64,000 nucleotides of DNA from Mycetocola reblochoni REB411 (lineage in GTDB: Bacteria > Actinomycetota > Actinomycetes > Actinomycetales > Microbacteriaceae). A program made the translations under genes and the position numbers. A model generated the notes under the pieces. It worked only from the letters and a program-made list of their open reading frames with translations, searched no databases and was not told the origin of the DNA. The DNA lies in contig NZ_FUKR01000036.1 of the NCBI RefSeq assembly GCF_900163835.1, forward strand, positions 186,001 to 250,000, in the 5' to 3' direction. Every line of letters begins with the position of its first letter. The stretch's first letter is position 1. This document shows positions 39,993 through 47,584 of the stretch, in pieces.

Positions 39993-40029
39993 GAACGCGG
40001 CGGGGAGAGACGATCTCCCCGCCGCGTTC
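39993..40029. terminator. bidirectional terminator between ndk and VKOR-like gene
   Basis: A perfect 16-pair inverted repeat GAACGCGGCGGGGAGA with a five-base loop, between converging genes. On the + strand it is followed by TGTTG, a weak T-rich tail. Confidence 0.9.
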
Positions 40030-40059
40030 TGTTGCGCGCCGGGCGCGGCGGGCGTCCGC

Positions 40060-40668
40060 TCAGAGGTAGGACAGGACGTCGAGGCGCAGCTGGGCGATGA
40101 GGGCGACCACCAGGTAGCACAGCAGCACGAGCAGCGGCAGCCAGGAGCTCGCCCTGTCGGCGACGCGCCGCCCGCGCTCGGGCAGCCCGAGGACGTCGCC
40201 GCGGGCGATGAAGAGCACCGTGGAGAGGAAGGCCGGGATCGTCACGGCCCAGGTGACCATGCACCACGGGCACAGCGTTCCGAGGACGAACACCGACTGC
40301 GAGATGAGCCAGATCACCAGACCGATGGCGAAGGCCATGCCGGCGGTGAACACGAGCCAGAACCACCGGGGCATCCGGACCCCGCTCACCGCGACGACAC
40401 CGGCGACGAGCACCATCGCCCAACCGGCGAGGCCGAGGATCGGGTTGGGGAAGCCGAACACCGCACCCTGCCACGAGTCGAGGTTCTTGCCGCACTGCAC
40501 GAGCAGGCTGAAGTTGCAGGAGAGGACGGCGTCCGGGTCGGCGAGCTGACGGAACTTGTCGATCGTGAGCGCGAACGCCGCAGCCCAGGCGATGAGGGAG
40601 GTGACGATGAGGACGACGCCGAGCGAACGCTGGCCCCTCGGCGTCGCGACGTCGGTAGCGGTGTACAC
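40060..40668 (-). CDS. vitamin K epoxide reductase (VKOR) family membrane protein
   Basis: Quinone-linked thiol oxidoreductase of the membrane, which in actinobacteria reoxidises the secreted disulfide-forming protein DsbA. The CPWC active motif is at 133-136 in TLCPWCMVTW, and the shuttle cysteines are Cys51 (VLSCNFS) and Cys59 (LVQCGKN). Five hydrophobic helices are predicted in 202 residues. There is no fused thioredoxin domain. The GTG start at 40668 gives the N-terminus MYTATDVATP; no better ATG exists. It is divergent from rne across a 305-base leader region. Confidence 0.93.
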   Translation of the reverse strand: MYTATDVATPRGQRSLGVVLIVTSLIAWAAAFALTIDKFRQLADPDAVLSCNFSLLVQCGKNLDSWQGAVFGFPNPILGLAGWAMVLVAGVVAVSGVRMPRWFWLVFTAGMAFAIGLVIWLISQSVFVLGTLCPWCMVTWAVTIPAFLSTVLFIARGDVLGLPERGRRVADRASSWLPLLVLLCYLVVALIAQLRLDVLSYL

Positions 40669-40973
40669 ACTCCGATTGTGCCACGCGGGTTGCGGGGTTC
40701 AGCTGCCTTCCGTGCCTGCGGGGGAGCATGCGGTAGTCTGAATCCGTGGTTGACGGTGAACGTCGGCCACGGATTAGAGTTTTGGCCGCCGCGGCGGCCG
40801 GAGGCGGTCCGCTTCACGGCGGATCGGACCAGAAGCACCGGTCGGTCGGAGTACCGATCGGGCACAGAACGTTCAGACCACTGAAGATGTGCGAGTCGCC
40901 CCGCAGAGGGGCGCCCGCAGAAGAGTTCCCGTCCCGTGGAGACACGGCGAACGGATGAGGAGTGCACCAGTCC
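40669..40973 (+). promoter_or_regulatory. divergent region with rne promoter candidate and long leader
   Basis: No gene is seen in these 305 bases. A promoter-like TTGACG (40750-40755) with TAGAGT (40775-40780) at 19 bases spacing would give an RNA start near 40787 and a leader of about 190 bases for rne. A perfect palindrome CCGCCGCGGCGG lies directly after it, at the likely 5' end of the RNA. A second -10-like TAGTCT is at 40734-40739. Long rne leaders are used for autoregulation in other bacteria; here that is inference only. Confidence 0.4.
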
Positions 40974-43900
40974 ATGGTGAAAGACAACGACACAAACGAA
41001 AACAGCTCGACCGACAGCGTGGCGGAGCACGAGGCCGCGGTCCAGACGGAGGGACGGCAGGCGGACGCGGTGATCGACACCGCCGTTCCCGATGCGGCGG
41101 GGGCCGCTGCCGCTGCGGCTGAGTCCGCCGCGGCCGCGACCGATGCGGATGAGCCCGCGGGTGCCGCGCCCGACACCGCCCCGGCGGGGAAGGCGACCGA
41201 CAGCGACGCCTCCGCGTCGGCGGACGAGGGCACGGACGCGTCGGTGGAAGCCGGCGCTGCCGTCGCCGGCGACCAGCACACTCCGGTGGCCGAGCAGGAC
41301 ATCCCGGCCGCGTTCGTGTCGAAGGTGAGCACCACGCTCGTCTTCCGCGCTCCCGACCTCAGCGCCTACCCGCCGCTGCCCCCGCTTCCGGGCAGCGGTC
41401 ATGATCGCGACGACGACGAGACCGACGAGCCCTCCGGGTCGTCGACGCGCCGCCGCAGCCGCCGCAGGGGGGATGACCGTAGGAACGACGACCGTCGCGA
41501 CGACGAGCCCCGCCGGCGCGAGCCCGAGCTCATCACCGAGCCGCAGAAGATCAAGGGCTCCACACGGCTCGAGGCAAAGAAGCAGCGTCGCCGCGATGGC
41601 CGCGACGCCGGGCGTCGCCGGAGCGTCGTGACCGAGGCGGAGTTCCTCGCCCGGCGCGAGTCGGTCGACCGCTCGATGATCGTGCGCTCGCTCCCGAACC
41701 GCACGCAGATCGGCGTCCTCGAGGACGGCGTCCTCGTGGAGCACTACGTCGCCAGGAGCCAGGAGGCGAGCCTCATCGGCAACGTCTACCTGGGTCGTGT
41801 GCAGAACGTGCTCCCGAGCATGGAGGCGGCCTTCATCGACATCGGCCGCGGTCGCAACGCCGTGCTCTACTCGGGTGAGGTCGACTGGGACAGCCTCGAG
41901 AACGGCAACCAGCCGCGCCGGATCGAGCTCGCGCTCAAGCCCGGTGACAAGGTGCTCGTGCAGGTCACGAAGGACCCCGTCGGGCACAAGGGCGCCAGGC
42001 TCACCAGCCAGATCTCCCTGCCGGGCCGCTACCTCGTCTACGTGCCGAACGGCTCGATGTCCGGCATCTCGCGCAAGCTCCCCGACACCGAGCGGTCCCG
42101 GCTCAAGAAGATCCTCAAGGAGGTCCTGCCCGAGAACGCCGGCGTGATCGTCCGGACCGCGGCCGAGGGCGCGACGGAGGAGCAGCTCACGCTCGACGTC
42201 AGCCGTCTCACCGGCCAGTGGGAGCACATCAGCTCGCGCGTCGCCTCGGCGAGTGCGCCCACTCTGCTGCACGCGGAGCCCGACCTCCTGGTCAAGATCG
42301 TCCGTGACGTGTTCAACGAGGACTTCCAGAAGATGGTCATCGCCGGCGACGACGCCAAGCAGACCATCGAGCAGTACCTGCACCAGGTCGCGCCCGAGCT
42401 CATCGACAGGATCGAGACCTACGAGGGCACGAGGGACGTCTTCGACCAGTACCGGGTGACCGAGCAGATCGAGAAGGCGCTCGACCGCAAGGTGTGGCTG
42501 CCCTCCGGCGGCTCGCTGGTGATCGACCGCACCGAGGCGATGACGGTGATCGACGTCAACACGGGGAAGTTCGTCGGATCCGGCGGCAACCTCGAGGAGA
42601 CGGTCACGAAGAACAACCTCGAGGCCGCCGAGGAGATCGTCCGGCAGCTGCGGCTGCGCGACATCGGTGGGATCATCGTCGTCGACTTCATCGACATGGT
42701 CCTCGAGAGCAACAGGGACCTCGTTCTCCGGCGTCTCATCGAGTGCCTGAGCCGCGACCGCACGAAGCACCAGGTCGCGGAGGTCACCTCGCTCGGCCTC
42801 GTGCAGATGACGCGTAAGAAGCTCGGCCTCGGGCTGCTGGAGACCTTCAGCGAGGCGTGCGAGGTGTGCGCGGGGCGCGGGGTGATCGTGCACCACGAGC
42901 CGGTCGCGAAGCACCGCTCGTCGTCGTCGAACAGCTCTCCCCGGAAGGGCAAGGGGTCCTCGAACGGCTCTTCGTCGAACGGATCGTCGTCGAACGGCTC
43001 CGGCCCGTCGAAGAACGAGTCCAAGGCACACGCCATCACCGATGACGCCAAGAACGCGCTGGCGAAGATCGCCGCCTCCACGCTCGTGGTCGACGGGGCG
43101 ATCGAACACGCCGATGCCGGCGGCCAGGCGGCAGCGGTCGAGGCCGCCGAGACGCGCCCGGCCGACGGAGCGGCGGCGGAGTCCGCGCACACGGACGAGC
43201 CCACCTCGCGACGCGGCGGCCGCGGTCGGGGCCGCGCACGGGGCAAGGGGGACGGCGAGTCCGCCCGCACCAGTGCGTCGACTGAATCGGAGTCGGCCGC
43301 GCGGGAGGTCGCAGGATCCCCGGTGACTGCCTCCGAGCCCGGAGAGCGCGGCACGGATTCCCCGCGCAACGGTTCGCGCCGTGCGTCCGCATCGAGCGCG
43401 TCGTCGGACGGCACGGCCGCGCCGACGGAGCGCGCGAGCGGCGATGAGCGTGCGAGCGGCGATGAGCGTGCGGCGCGCAGGGCGAGGGGCGAGCGTCCGA
43501 CCAGGGCCGAGCGTGCCGAGCGTGCGCGGGCGGCGAAGGAAGCCGAGCGGGCGTCGGCCGGTGAGGCGCCGGCAGGGAGCCGGGCCGCGACGGATCGTCC
43601 GGCGCGCTCGGCGTCGGCGGGCGGTTCGCCGCGCCGGACGACGGCCGATGCCACGGCGCCGGCGGCCACGGCGACGGCGACGGCGAGCGAGTCATCCGCG
43701 ACGACCGCACCCGCGGTGCCCGCCTCCGCCCCGGCCACCCGCCCGGCGTCACGTCGACGTCGGGTGTCGCAGCCCGTCACCGAGGCCGGAACGGCCGCGC
43801 CGGTCGTCCTCGACCTGCCGACGGCTGCACCGCACGGTCGTCCGGCGACGGACACGCGTCAGGCGAAGCAGCTTCTCGACTCCGTGCTCGACAGCCTGCC

Positions 43901-43997
43901 GACGCAGGAGCAGCCGCGAAAGGCCGTGCGTAGCCGCCGCGTGACGACGGATGCGATCACGGGCAGCGTGGGCGAGACTCAGGACTCGGCGGAGTAG
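40974..43997 (+). CDS. rne: ribonuclease E/G
   Basis: Endoribonuclease for mRNA decay and rRNA/tRNA processing. The catalytic core sits centrally (about residues 215-650): S1 domain at about 266-310 (NVYLGRVQNVLPSMEAAFID), catalytic DNase I-like part with DFIDM near 570, and the zinc-link CEVCAGRG near 629. The N-terminal 200 residues are acidic and Ala-rich; the C-terminal 370 residues are low complexity, rich in Ser, Asn, Ala, Arg and Glu, with a short repeated unit ERASGD. This double-sided tail layout is typical of actinobacteria. The start is uncertain: ATG 40974 lies 12 bases after GAGGAG, while GTG 40962 directly abuts it. Confidence 0.96.
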   Translation: MVKDNDTNENSSTDSVAEHEAAVQTEGRQADAVIDTAVPDAAGAAAAAAESAAAATDADEPAGAAPDTAPAGKATDSDASASADEGTDASVEAGAAVAGDQHTPVAEQDIPAAFVSKVSTTLVFRAPDLSAYPPLPPLPGSGHDRDDDETDEPSGSSTRRRSRRRGDDRRNDDRRDDEPRRREPELITEPQKIKGSTRLEAKKQRRRDGRDAGRRRSVVTEAEFLARRESVDRSMIVRSLPNRTQIGVLEDGVLVEHYVARSQEASLIGNVYLGRVQNVLPSMEAAFIDIGRGRNAVLYSGEVDWDSLENGNQPRRIELALKPGDKVLVQVTKDPVGHKGARLTSQISLPGRYLVYVPNGSMSGISRKLPDTERSRLKKILKEVLPENAGVIVRTAAEGATEEQLTLDVSRLTGQWEHISSRVASASAPTLLHAEPDLLVKIVRDVFNEDFQKMVIAGDDAKQTIEQYLHQVAPELIDRIETYEGTRDVFDQYRVTEQIEKALDRKVWLPSGGSLVIDRTEAMTVIDVNTGKFVGSGGNLEETVTKNNLEAAEEIVRQLRLRDIGGIIVVDFIDMVLESNRDLVLRRLIECLSRDRTKHQVAEVTSLGLVQMTRKKLGLGLLETFSEACEVCAGRGVIVHHEPVAKHRSSSSNSSPRKGKGSSNGSSSNGSSSNGSGPSKNESKAHAITDDAKNALAKIAASTLVVDGAIEHADAGGQAAAVEAAETRPADGAAAESAHTDEPTSRRGGRGRGRARGKGDGESARTSASTESESAAREVAGSPVTASEPGERGTDSPRNGSRRASASSASSDGTAAPTERASGDERASGDERAARRARGERPTRAERAERARAAKEAERASAGEAPAGSRAATDRPARSASAGGSPRRTTADATAPAATATATASESSATTAPAVPASAPATRPASRRRRVSQPVTEAGTAAPVVLDLPTAAPHGRPATDTRQAKQLLDSVLDSLPTQEQPRKAVRSRRVTTDAITGSVGETQDSAE

Positions 43998-44269
43998 CCG
44001 CGGGGGTGTCGGTCCTTGGCCGGCACCCTCAGCCCGCTTGCCAGGAGGCGGCGCACGAGGGCGTGGGCGTCGACGCTCACGGCACCCGCGGCGACAAGTT
44101 CGTGGTGGCGTGAGGCCGGGACGTCGTAGTGGTCCAGGTCGAAGCCTCGACGGGGCACCCGGTTGGCGTCGGCGAACGCGTGCAGCTCCTCGATCGACGT
44201 GTCGCTGATCAGATGCGACCACGTGGTGCCGTGGGCGGGCCAGAGCGGGGGGTCGATCAGGACGGCCAT
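43979..44269 (-). CDS. DUF4031 domain-containing protein
   Basis: A 96-residue protein that starts MAVLIDPPLWPAHGTTWSHL and has SDTSIEELHAFADANRVP and GFDLDHYDVPASRHHELVAAGA, the DUF4031 pattern with conserved Trp, His and Asp residues that look like a metal or nucleotide site. The biochemical role is not known to me. Its 3' end overlaps the 3' end of rne by 19 bases on the opposite strand, and a T-tailed terminator for the + strand lies just before its start. Confidence 0.87.
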   Translation of the reverse strand: MAVLIDPPLWPAHGTTWSHLISDTSIEELHAFADANRVPRRGFDLDHYDVPASRHHELVAAGAVSVDAHALVRRLLASGLRVPAKDRHPRGYSAES

Positions 44270-44321
44270 GGGGTCATGCTAGCCGAGCCCCGCGCCGGTC
44301 CCTGTTCCTCGGGGGACGGCC

Positions 44322-44358
44322 GATGCCGGGGTGCAGGGAACCCCGGCATCGGGTTTTT
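44322..44358 (+). terminator. rho-independent terminator with T-tract (for rne)
   Basis: GATGCCGGGG pairs with CCCCGGCATC around a nine-base loop and is followed by GGGTTTTT. The T-tract is on the + strand. It is 325 bases after the rne stop and beyond the whole antisense DUF4031 gene, so it most likely ends the rne transcript and protects the rplU promoter. Confidence 0.88.
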
Positions 44359-44382
44359 CGGCCCGCCGGGGCGTGTCACCAT

Positions 44383-44411
44383 TTGTCCCTCACCCTCGAA
44401 TCGAGTATTCT
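44383..44411 (+). promoter_or_regulatory. promoter of rplU operon
   Basis: TTGTCC (44383-44388) and TATTCT (44406-44411) are 17 bases apart, a good fit to the housekeeping sigma consensus. It lies between the rne terminator and the ribosomal protein genes. Confidence 0.65.
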
Positions 44412-44417
44412 CGATCT

Positions 44418-44551
44418 TTGGTATGCGGTGTGTTGTTCGCACCTCACGGATTTCTGCCGGACGGCAGCCCCAAGGGAACACCCGCCTCGTGCGGAGATTC
44501 CCGCACAGTGTTAGTTCGGAGCGTCAGCTCCCTAAGGAATAGGTACGAGTA
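44418..44551 (+). promoter_or_regulatory. structured 5' leader of rplU
   Basis: About 134 bases of leader hold two perfect small hairpins: GTGCGG/CCGCAC (44489-44506) and GGAGC/GCTCC (44518-44531). The second ends three bases before the ribosome site AAGGAA (44535-44540). This layout would allow L21 to control its own translation, as ribosomal protein leaders do elsewhere. I cannot assign it to a known leader family. Confidence 0.4.
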
Positions 44552-44860
44552 GTGGTTTACGCAGTTGTGCGCGCCGGTGGCCGGCAGGAGAAGGTGGAGA
44601 TCGGAACGATCGTCACGACGAACCGCATCGCGGGCGATAAGGACGGCAAGGTTTCGTTCCCGGCTGTTCTGCTCGTCGACGGTGACACCATCACCTCCGA
44701 CCAGGACGCGCTGGCCAAGGTCACGGTGACCGGCGAGGTCCTCAACGACCTTCGCGGCCCGAAGATCGTCATCCAGAAGTTCAAGAACAAAACCGGGTAC
44801 AAGAAGCGTCAGGGCCACCGCCAGGACCTCACCCGCGTCAAGATCACCGGCATCAAGTAG
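44552..44860 (+). CDS. rplU: 50S ribosomal protein L21
   Basis: Large-subunit protein that binds 23S rRNA near L20. The 102-residue protein starts [19 protein letters not shown], has the [21 protein letters not shown] basic segment that contacts rRNA and ends TRVKITGIK, all standard. The start is GTG with a ribosome site AAGGAA 11 bases upstream. First gene of the rplU-rpmA-obgE-proB transcript; rpmA starts 19 bases after the stop. Confidence 0.98.
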
Positions 44861-44879
44861 CCAGGCAGGAGAAACAGAC

Positions 44880-45137
44880 ATGGCACACAAGAAGGGTGCG
44901 AGCTCCACTCGCAACGGTCGTGATTCGAACGCTCAGCGCCTCGGCGTGAAGCGCTTCGGCGGTCAGGTCGTCTCCGCTGGCGAGATCATCGTCCGCCAGC
45001 GCGGCACCCACTTCCACCCCGGCGTGAACGTCGGCCGCGGTGGCGACGACACGCTGTTCGCCCTCGCCGCCGGTGCGGTCGAGTTCGGCGCCAAGGGCGG
45101 CCGCAAGGTCGTCAACATCGTCGCCGCAGCGGAGTAG
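44880..45137 (+). CDS. rpmA: 50S ribosomal protein L27
   Basis: Large-subunit protein whose N-terminal tail reaches the peptidyl transferase centre. The 85-residue sequence [20 protein letters not shown] is the mature actinobacterial form, with no cleavable leader as found in Firmicutes. RBS CAGGAG is 9 bases upstream. It is followed by two stable hairpins before obgE, which could lower transcription into the downstream genes. Confidence 0.98.
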
Positions 45138-45150
45138 TCCCGCTGTATCC

Positions 45151-45184
45151 GATGCAGGGGTGGGCACGTGCCCGCCCCTGCATC
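45151..45184 (+). terminator. hairpin after rpmA, terminator or attenuator
   Basis: A 34-base palindrome: GATGCAGGGG pairs with CCCCTGCATC, with an inner GGGC-ACGT-GCCC. It is followed by GTCGTTTG. Since obgE belongs to the same cluster, it may be only partly effective. Confidence 0.7.
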
Positions 45185-45192
45185 GTCGTTTG

Positions 45193-45223
45193 TGGCCCCC
45201 GGGCCGGACGCCCCTCGGGGCCA
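45193..45223 (+). promoter_or_regulatory. second hairpin just before obgE
   Basis: TGGCCCC pairs with GGGGCCA and encloses GGGC/GCCC. It ends 16 bases before the obgE GTG, next to the weak ribosome site AAAGAAAG. It could shape translation of obgE. Confidence 0.45.
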
Positions 45224-45239
45224 AAGAAAGTGAGCAACC

Positions 45240-46754
45240 GTGGCAACATTCGTCGACCGCGTCGTCCTGCACCTCAGCGCCGGTGATGGCGGCAACGGCT
45301 GCGTGTCCGTGCGCCGCGAGAAGTTCAAGCCCCTGGCCGGACCCGACGGAGGCAACGGCGGTGACGGCGGTGACATCGTCCTCGTCGCCGACTCCCAGGT
45401 GACGACGCTGCTCGGCTACCACCGGTCGCCGCATCGCCGGTCGGACCACGGTGGTTTCGGCATGGGCGACCACCGCGACGGTGCGAAGGGCGCCGTCCTG
45501 GAGCTGCCCGTCCCGGTCGGGACGGTCGTCAACGACGCGGACGGGACGGTGCTCGCCGACCTCGACGAACCCGGCATGCGGGTTGTTGTCGCGCCCGGGG
45601 GACAGGGCGGGCTGGGCAACGCGGCCCTGGCCTCGACCAAGCGGAAGGCGCCGGGCTTCGCTCTGCTCGGCACGCCCGGGTGGACGGGGGACGTGGAGCT
45701 CGAGCTGAAGACCGTGGCGGACGTCGCGCTCGTCGGGTATCCCTCGGCGGGCAAGTCGAGCCTGATCGCGGCGATGTCCGCGGCCAAGCCGAAGATCGCC
45801 GACTACCCCTTCACCACGCTCCACCCCAACCTCGGCGTCGTCCAGGCCGGCGACTACCGCTTCACCGTCGCGGACGTGCCCGGGCTGATCGAGGGCGCCA
45901 GCGAGGGCAAGGGACTCGGCCTCGAGTTCCTTCGCCACGTCGAACGCTGCTCGGCGCTGCTCCACGTACTCGACTGCGCGACCCTCGAGCCCGGACGTGA
46001 CCCGATCAGCGACCTCGACGTCATCCTCGGCGAGCTGGGCGCCTACACCGTGGCCGAGGGCGATGTGCCCCTGCTCGAGCGCCCGCAGTTCGTCGCCCTC
46101 AACAAGGTCGACGTGCCGGAGGCCCGTGAACTGGCCGAGTTCGTCCGCCCCGAGCTGGAGTCGCGCGGCTATCGTGTCTTCGAGATCTCCGCGGTGAGCC
46201 ATAGCGGACTCACCCCGCTGTCCTACGCCCTCGGTGAGCTCGTCGCGGCCGAACGAGCCGAGCGCGCCGCGCAGGAGCAGGTCAGCCCCCGCATCGTCCT
46301 GAGGCCGAAGGCGGTCGACGACTCCGGTTTCACCGTTGTGGCCGAGGGGGGCAGCTACGGCACGATCTACCGCATCCGCGGGGGGAAGCCGGAGCGCTGG
46401 GTGGCCCAGACGGACTTCACCAACGACGAGGCGGTCGGCTACCTCGCCGATCGGCTCGCCAAGATCGGTGTGGAGGACCAGCTCGTCAAGGCCGGCGCAT
46501 CGGCCGGATCGACGGTCGTCATCGGCGCGGGCGACGGGGTCGTGTTCGACTGGGAGCCCACGCTGACCAGCACGGCGGAGCTCCTGACGACGCCGCGCGG
46601 GTCCGACGCGAGGCTCTTCGAGAGCGAGCGCCCGACGCGCGGCGCCCGTAAGGCGAGCTACCACGAGCGCATGGACGCCAAGGCGGAGGCGCGGGAGGAG
46701 CTCGAGCGCGAGCGCGAGGCGGGCCTCTGGTCGGAGGGGGACGAGGAGCGGTGA
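45240..46754 (+). CDS. obgE: GTPase Obg (CgtA)
   Basis: Essential ribosome-associated GTPase. The N-terminal Obg fold covers about residues 1-158 with glycine-rich loops ([10 protein letters not shown]). The G domain begins with G1 [14 protein letters not shown] near 165, the switch region [15 protein letters not shown]3 [10 protein letters not shown] and G4 NKVD. The C-terminal OCT domain and a charged actinobacterial tail complete 504 residues. Acts in 50S assembly and stringent control. GTG 45240 gives the family N-terminus [19 protein letters not shown]. Its stop overlaps the proB start by four bases. Confidence 0.97.
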
Positions 46755-47584
46755 CCGTCGAGGAGCGCTCAGGGCTGCCGTCGGCACGCCGGATCGTCGT
46801 CAAGGTCGGCTCGTCGTCGATCAGCGGTGACCGCACCGCCCAGATCGAGCCGCTCGTCGACGCCCTCGCCGCAGCCAGGGCACGCGGCACGGAGGTCGTC
46901 CTCGTGTCCTCGGGGGCGATCGCCACCGGACTGCCGTTCCTCGACCTCTCGGCGCGCCCGACCGACCTGGCGACGCAGCAGGCCGCGGCGGCGGTCGGCC
47001 AGAACGTGCTCATGAACCGCTACCAGCGCAGCCTCACCAGGCACGGGCTCGTCGCGGGGCAGATCCTGCTCACGGCGGGCGACCTCGATGATCCGAGCTC
47101 GCGTGTCAACGCCCTCAGGGCTCTGGACAGGTTGCTCGCGCTCGGCATCCTTCCGATCGTCAACGAGAACGACACCGTCGCAACGCACGAGATCCGCTTC
47201 GGCGACAACGACCGTCTCGCCTCCCTCGTGTCCGTGCTGCTCGGCGCGGACGCGCTCGTGCTGCTCAGCGACGTCGATGCGATCTACACCAAGCCGCCGA
47301 CCGAGCCCGGGGCGACCCGGATCACGGCGGTCGCGCAGGGCGGTTCTCTCGCGCACGTGCAGTTCGGTGGCGCCGGCTCGGCCGGCGTGGGCACGGGCGG
47401 GGCGGGGACGAAGGCCAGCGCGGCGATGATCGCCAGCGAGGCGGGCAGCGGAGTCCTGATCACGGCGACGGAGCTCGTCGGCGACGCGCTCGGGGGAGCG
47501 GACGTCGGCACCTGGTTCGAGCCGGCTCCCCGGCCGGCCGGTCGGGCGTCGATGTTCACCGCTCCCGGCTCGGCCGCCGAATAA
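46751..47584 (+). CDS. proB: glutamate 5-kinase (without PUA domain)
   Basis: First step of proline synthesis, phosphorylating glutamate. The amino acid kinase domain starts [11 protein letters not shown] and includes [23 protein letters not shown] and [12 protein letters not shown]. At 277 residues it stops after the kinase domain: the C-terminal PUA domain of E. coli ProB (total 367) is missing, as in other Actinobacteria. The GTG start overlaps the obgE stop, and proA follows 13 bases later. Confidence 0.96.

Follow-up and report, generated by a model that had tools for sequence, protein, structure and literature searches.

Two described gene arrangements are among the systems closest to the locus discussed here. 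In the excludon-type overlap of 3′ untranslated regions (UTRs) (PMC7154746), tail-to-tail genes stand without a T-tailed terminator between them and a long antisense 3′ UTR is possible. The same source covers the noncontiguous operon of S. aureus, menE-menC-ytkD with MW1733, where an opposite-strand gene lies between two genes of the other strand.

For the ends of transcripts we turn to mycobacteria. One review (PMC12288462) puts canonical terminators at 2–4% of termination sites and Rho-dependent termination at about 54%, and it describes hairpins without a poly-U tail at ≤50 bp from stop codons as well as a Rho of M. tuberculosis that accepts purine-rich RNA. Leaderless mycobacterial mRNAs, which begin at the start codon, are the subject of another article (PMC4633059). 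Feedback of RNase E on its own gene works via the rne 5′ UTR in E. coli, according to PMC10989929.

The locus and its relation to described systems

The window, by which we mean the whole analyzed stretch of 64,000 nucleotides, comes from a 260-kb contig of Mycetocola reblochoni REB411, and all coordinates are counted from its first letter. A sequence-only reading had placed the only T-tailed terminator downstream of rne beyond an entire gene of the opposite strand. It concluded that the rne mRNA would carry a full antisense copy of this gene, and that RNase E activity on its own message could link the two. The features on which the following discussion depends are these:

40962–43997, + strand: rne, ribonuclease of the RNase E/G family, 1011 aa (PF10150, E 2.1e-104; TIGR00757 (Rne/Rng), E 1.8e-152)
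43995–43997, + strand: rne stop codon TAG
44269→43979, − strand: DUF4031 gene, 96 aa (PF13223, E 3.5e-31), also called by the codon model
44000–44033, + strand: hairpin without T-tail, candidate first 3′-end signal of rne (−24.8 kcal/mol)
44276–44281, − strand: TAGCAT, predicted −10 element for DUF4031, 6 nt upstream of the ATG
44320–44352, + strand: hairpin of a predicted T-tailed intrinsic terminator, T run at 44354–44358
44383–44411, + strand: predicted rplU promoter TTGTCC-N17-TATTCT (TTGTCC at 44383, TATTCT at 44406)
44552–44860, + strand: rplU (L21)
44880–45137, + strand: rpmA
45240–46754, + strand: obgE (the rplU-rpmA-obgE set matches PF00829, PF01016 and PF01018)

The coding ends of rne and DUF4031 meet tail to tail and share 19 bp, with the rne stop codon inside the DUF4031 end; such a layout is ordinary for these bacteria. 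A frame-aware codon gene model, which called 226 genes in the contig, agrees with the Pfam-supported open reading frames near rne, apart from placing the starts of rne and rplU 12 and 15 nt too far downstream. Two open reading frames after obgE are presumably proB and proA. Between rpmA and obgE, at 45150–45185, lies a 16-pair hairpin of −35.3 kcal/mol with a weak T tail (TCGTTTGT).

In keeping with the excludon-type layout, no T-tailed terminator separates the convergent genes and one lies beyond the opposite gene, so that a long antisense 3′ UTR is conceivable; measured against PMC7154746, the locus differs by the tail-less hairpin at the end of rne and by being described here from its sequence. 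With the noncontiguous operon of the same source it shares an opposite-strand gene between two + strand genes, rne and rplU, which are neighbours in relatives without DUF4031, whereas in the window a terminator and rplU's own promoter stand between them. The strong hairpin without a T run just downstream of the rne stop resembles the mycobacterial ‘I-shaped’ hairpins (PMC12288462), although the window belongs to another actinobacterial family and the way such hairpins would act is contested in mycobacteria. Likewise, the −10 element 6 nt before the DUF4031 ATG predicts an RNA start at the start codon, as in the leaderless mRNAs of PMC4633059, with the difference that the start site in the window is a prediction from sequence.

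A T-tailed terminator beyond the opposite gene

The + strand hairpin at 44320–44352 has 13 pairs, 10 of them G-C, folds at −28.0 kcal/mol and is followed by GTTTTTC (44353–44359), which gives it both the GC-rich stem and the immediate T run of an intrinsic terminator. It starts 323 nt downstream of the rne stop codon, past the whole of DUF4031, and is the sole T-tailed hairpin on the + strand from the end of rne to the rplU promoter, just as the sequence-only reading had it. A looser scan adds two weaker + strand hairpins, one overlapping the −10 of rplU (44400–44415) and one in the rplU leader (44489–44506). From the last T of the terminator to the −35 of rplU there are 24 bp.

How strong is this signal for a genome of this composition? 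It ranks 4th among the 45 T-tailed hairpins at ≤−10 kcal/mol on both strands of the contig, and the fold of 44314–44360 has a z-score of −4.6. At ≤−25 kcal/mol the contig holds 4 T-tailed hairpins on the + and 1 on the − strand, compared with 0, 0, 2 and 0 in four randomized 260-kb single strands of matched dinucleotide content; at ≤−10 kcal/mol the corresponding counts are 25 and 20 against 31, 23, 37 and 35. Since the latter do not exceed the random level, only strong T-tailed hairpins are meaningful and weak ones carry no weight.

A promoter between rne and the terminator had been named as one observation that would speak against the sequence-only reading. None came to light on the + strand: there is no TANNNT element in 43998–44319, and a scan of 40000–47000 gave no sigma-70-like match. 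Transcripts reaching the terminator should therefore originate at rne or further upstream, and rne is the sole + strand gene just upstream that the terminator could serve. Judged by its predicted fold and tail, the hairpin at 44320–44352 really is an intrinsic terminator, acting on + strand RNA that continues past rne.

Two other identities were rejected. A likeness to the FinP antisense RNA (RF00107) at 44285–44358 reaches 24.9 bits against a gathering cut-off of 45 (E 0.16) and reduces to the terminator stem and tail. As for a repeat element, matches of a 78-base query elsewhere in the same genome extend over 15–33 bases only. Besides the window's own copy, the 398 family genomes contain no full-length match to the 156-base terminator stretch; at E 0.01, 36 of 398 match, the own genome included and the others all partial (20 to about 60 bases), and because at most two candidates were scored per genome a diverged copy could be missed.

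How convergent genes end in the contig

A base rate is needed to judge how telling it is that rne and DUF4031 have no T-tailed hairpin between them. The genes called by the codon model in the 260-kb contig form 39 convergent pairs, the rne pair included, and hence 78 convergent ends. For 4 of these the nearest T-tailed hairpin lies between the pair, for 6 inside the first opposite gene, for 12 beyond the opposite gene and before the next gene on the own strand, and for 55 further away; one has none. A missing T-tailed hairpin between the pair is thus the rule (74 of 78) and no proof of run-on transcription: T-tailed hairpins are not how most genes in this contig end. Of the 39 pairs, 7 overlap by at least 4 bp and 11 have gaps of no more than 30 bp.

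Hairpins of either kind, T-tailed or not, peak 0–40 nt after the stop codons at the 78 convergent ends, where the means reach about −7 versus −3.5 to −5.3 elsewhere, which suggests a general 3′-end signal in this genome. As to Rho, the + strand of the interval from rne to the terminator is rich in G (132 G and 103 C of 323), and a scan of it for C-rich, G-poor Rho sites found none. This counts against a part played by Rho, although the Rho of M. tuberculosis accepts purine-rich RNA.

Gene order is kept among relatives, the terminator is not

DUF4031 is present in 307 of 398 family genomes. For comparison, 180 loci including the window were fetched, partly by taking best matches first and partly by hand from a match list, and 143 of them have DUF4031 on the − strand followed by rplU on the +. 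Of the 143, 132 are distinct in their DUF4031 DNA; the rne stop was located in 110 of the 132, and 94 of the 110 (window included) are tight loci, in which the rne–DUF4031 gap lies between −60 and 400 and the DUF4031–rplU distance is ≤400. Gap sizes vary widely among the relatives, with a median of 36.5 bp and 11 overlaps in the 110 loci; one value of −339 is probably a misread rne end. Among the named loci, the best 80 out of at least 589, 18 have no rplU at this place. We place 15 of the 18 outside the Microbacteriaceae, with Arthrobacter, Cellulomonas, Rothia and Georgenia among them, and 3 within it (Leucobacter, Amnibacterium, Mycetocola); the Mycetocola locus (L160) and one of the Cellulomonas loci (L185) run into a contig end after 240 and 432 bases, where rplU may be cut off. 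No other genome of the window's genus stood among the matches listed in the searches of family genomes.

The placement of T-tailed hairpins ahead of the rplU promoter follows a different pattern. In 88 of the 94 tight loci there is none, in 3 (L074, L091, L165) one lies between rne and DUF4031, and in 2 it lies beyond DUF4031, namely in the window and in L191, where it is weak (−16 kcal/mol) and overlaps the DUF4031 promoter. A candidate in L073, whose sequence is that of the rplU leader block, was left out of both placements because no promoter was found there. In L091 (G017) the choice made in the window is reversed: a 19-pair hairpin with a six-T run directly separates rne from DUF4031. The conservation check proposed with the sequence-only reading therefore has a divided outcome: the gene order holds, but a terminator beyond DUF4031 in 2 of 94 loci is not a conserved placement.

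Of the 91 family genomes that gave no DUF4031 match, 18 were examined, and rne was found in 17 of them, at 104–236 bp before rplU. Three T-tailed hairpins occur there, all weak (−10.7 to −11.7 kcal/mol), two of them inside the leader of rplU and the third spanning the rne stop codon. In the examined relatives that lack DUF4031, rne and rplU thus adjoin without a strong terminator, and in others DUF4031 sits between them.

A promoter pattern precedes rplU in 74 of the 94 loci. Its 5′ leader, 44411–44551 in the window, contains a block conserved right after the promoter in 21 aligned sequences, with the consensus GACCGTTGGTGTGCG...CCCGC...CCA.GGTTTTCTG, from which the copy in the window diverges. 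In 41 of the 47 loci that remain after thinning (see below), rplU is preceded by a −10 and then a TTGGTG-like box. Rfam assigned no family at its gathering cut-off to the loci of 12 relatives; the region could be an L21 leader or attenuator.

A tail-less hairpin directly after the rne stop codon

While the sequence-only reading was right about the T-tailed terminator, it overlooked a second strong structure on the + strand much closer to rne. The hairpin at 44000–44033, a stem of 13 consecutive pairs closed by a 3-nt loop and not followed by a T run, opens at the third base downstream of the rne stop codon and sits within the antisense of the DUF4031 3′ end. The 46 nt of 43995–44040 fold at −28 with a z-score of −3.2, equalled by 1 of 200 shuffles; this segment was chosen by eye, so that its z-score alone is no test.

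The best hairpin within 60 nt after the rne stop reaches −20 or lower in 29 of the 94 tight loci (window included) versus 9 of 1228 control windows taken from elsewhere in the same loci. Post-stop values have a mean of −14.5 and a median of −10.1, compared with −6.2 for both in the controls and a mean of −7.4 after shuffling, and the 60 nt after the stop outrank all other stretches of their locus in 38 of 94 cases, where 6.7 are expected. As several loci share genera, they were thinned to 47, one for each group at 80% protein identity, with the same picture: 14 of 47 against 5 of 614, or 13 of 46 against 5 of 602 when the window is omitted.

Among the 40 loci with a post-stop hairpin at ≤−12, 37 have no more than two T in the next 8 bases; 26 of the 40 hairpins extend into the DUF4031 coding end and 14 stop before it. 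The sequence of the strongest ones differs between groups and their position recurs. The other 54 of the 94 loci have no hairpin at ≤−12 in these 60 nt, which means that an early stop is not universal, and the milder peak at the convergent genes of the contig points to a general habit and not one special to rne. For the window, 44000–44033 is a competing candidate for the first 3′-end signal of rne. Such tail-less signals are contested in mycobacteria, since Czyz et al. reportedly argued in 2014 that the U-tract is needed for termination.

A conserved promoter motif for DUF4031

A TANNNT element lies 6, 7 or 8 nt before the DUF4031 start codon in 112 of the 132 distinct loci, where 200 shuffles average 3 and never exceed 10. 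In the window it reads TAGCAT-N6-ATG, within the 6–8 nt spacing of leaderless genes. The motif predicts that DUF4031 is transcribed from its own conserved promoter of the leaderless type and yields a leaderless mRNA.

DUF4031 is also found in other contexts. In six loci of the family or order away from rplU (L003, L008, L018, L028, L097, L103), it forms the N-terminal part of proteins of 245–317 aa. Of three of these proteins scanned with Pfam, one gave a sub-threshold NUDIX match (E 0.0014) and the other two nothing further; the tails of some have what we take to be an HD-like look. A phage genome paper mentions DUF4031 as well.

Where does the rne transcript end?

The best reading of these observations, to which we give a probability of roughly 60%, is that the terminator at 44320 is a lineage-specific second stop. 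Most rne transcripts would end or be trimmed near the stop codon, through the hairpin at 44000–44033, through Rho acting on untranslated RNA, or both. Polymerases passing the end of rne would run antisense through DUF4031, itself transcribed from its leaderless-type promoter, and be halted at 44320 before they reach the rplU promoter, which would thereby be insulated. A share of the rne RNA would then carry DUF4031 antisense. The sequence elements with their strength, the base rates, the kept gene order and DUF4031 promoter motif and the unkept T-tailed terminator are observed; the true end of the rne RNA, the extent of read-through and the insulation are inferred.

A simpler account treats the overlap and the distant terminator as by-products of compact packing without any regulatory effect on DUF4031, which is compatible with a second stop. 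The overlaps and short gaps among the contig's convergent pairs fit it, as do the variable gaps of the relatives and the terminator stretch that is matched in full in no other family genome. That the terminator is stronger than chance and placed just before a ribosomal-protein promoter suggests selection for insulation instead, and we regard this account as possible, if on the doubtful side.

We consider it unlikely that 44320 is the main terminator of rne, in which case a 3′ UTR of about 360 nt, fully antisense, would repress DUF4031 through interference or through cleavage of the duplex. In its favour, no other strong T-tailed terminator lies there, the + strand has no TANNNT in between, and the DUF4031 promoter motif means that sense and antisense RNA could coexist. 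Against this stand the strong hairpin directly after the rne stop, the rarity with which convergent genes in the contig end at T-tailed hairpins, and a placement shared with one other locus of the 94, whose weak hairpin covers the DUF4031 promoter. For the same reasons, namely the 74 like-built convergent ends, the nearer tail-less hairpin and the placement in 2 of 94 loci, the claim that the rne mRNA carries a full DUF4031 antisense copy is only partly borne out: the layout allows it, though probably not as the normal state. Of the proposed RNase E feedback at the rne 3′ end, the sequence analysis of the locus gave no supporting sign.

Quite improbable is a noncontiguous operon in which rne read-through in relatives feeds rplU-rpmA-obgE under mutual control with DUF4031, so that a unit across the Microbacteriaceae would couple RNase E, ribosomal proteins and DUF4031 until the gain of a strong terminator cut it in the window's lineage: the kept gene order, the 88 loci without a T-tailed hairpin before the rplU promoter and the adjoining rne and rplU of 17 DUF4031-less relatives with weak candidates only would suit it, but rplU mostly has a promoter pattern of its own, many loci have strong hairpins after rne, and the same scarcity of T-tailed hairpins at most convergent pairs of the contig makes theirs no special sign.

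What the locus means for the family

A partial literature search, not aimed exactly at this point, found no report on rne 3′ ends in Microbacteriaceae. The locus offers two candidate stop signals spaced by about 320 nt. Above all it illustrates, for a high-GC actinobacterium, that run-on transcription does not follow from a missing T-tailed terminator. Should transcripts extend past DUF4031 after all, antisense RNA to a conserved gene without an assigned function would come from an RNase gene, at a locus shared by much of the family.
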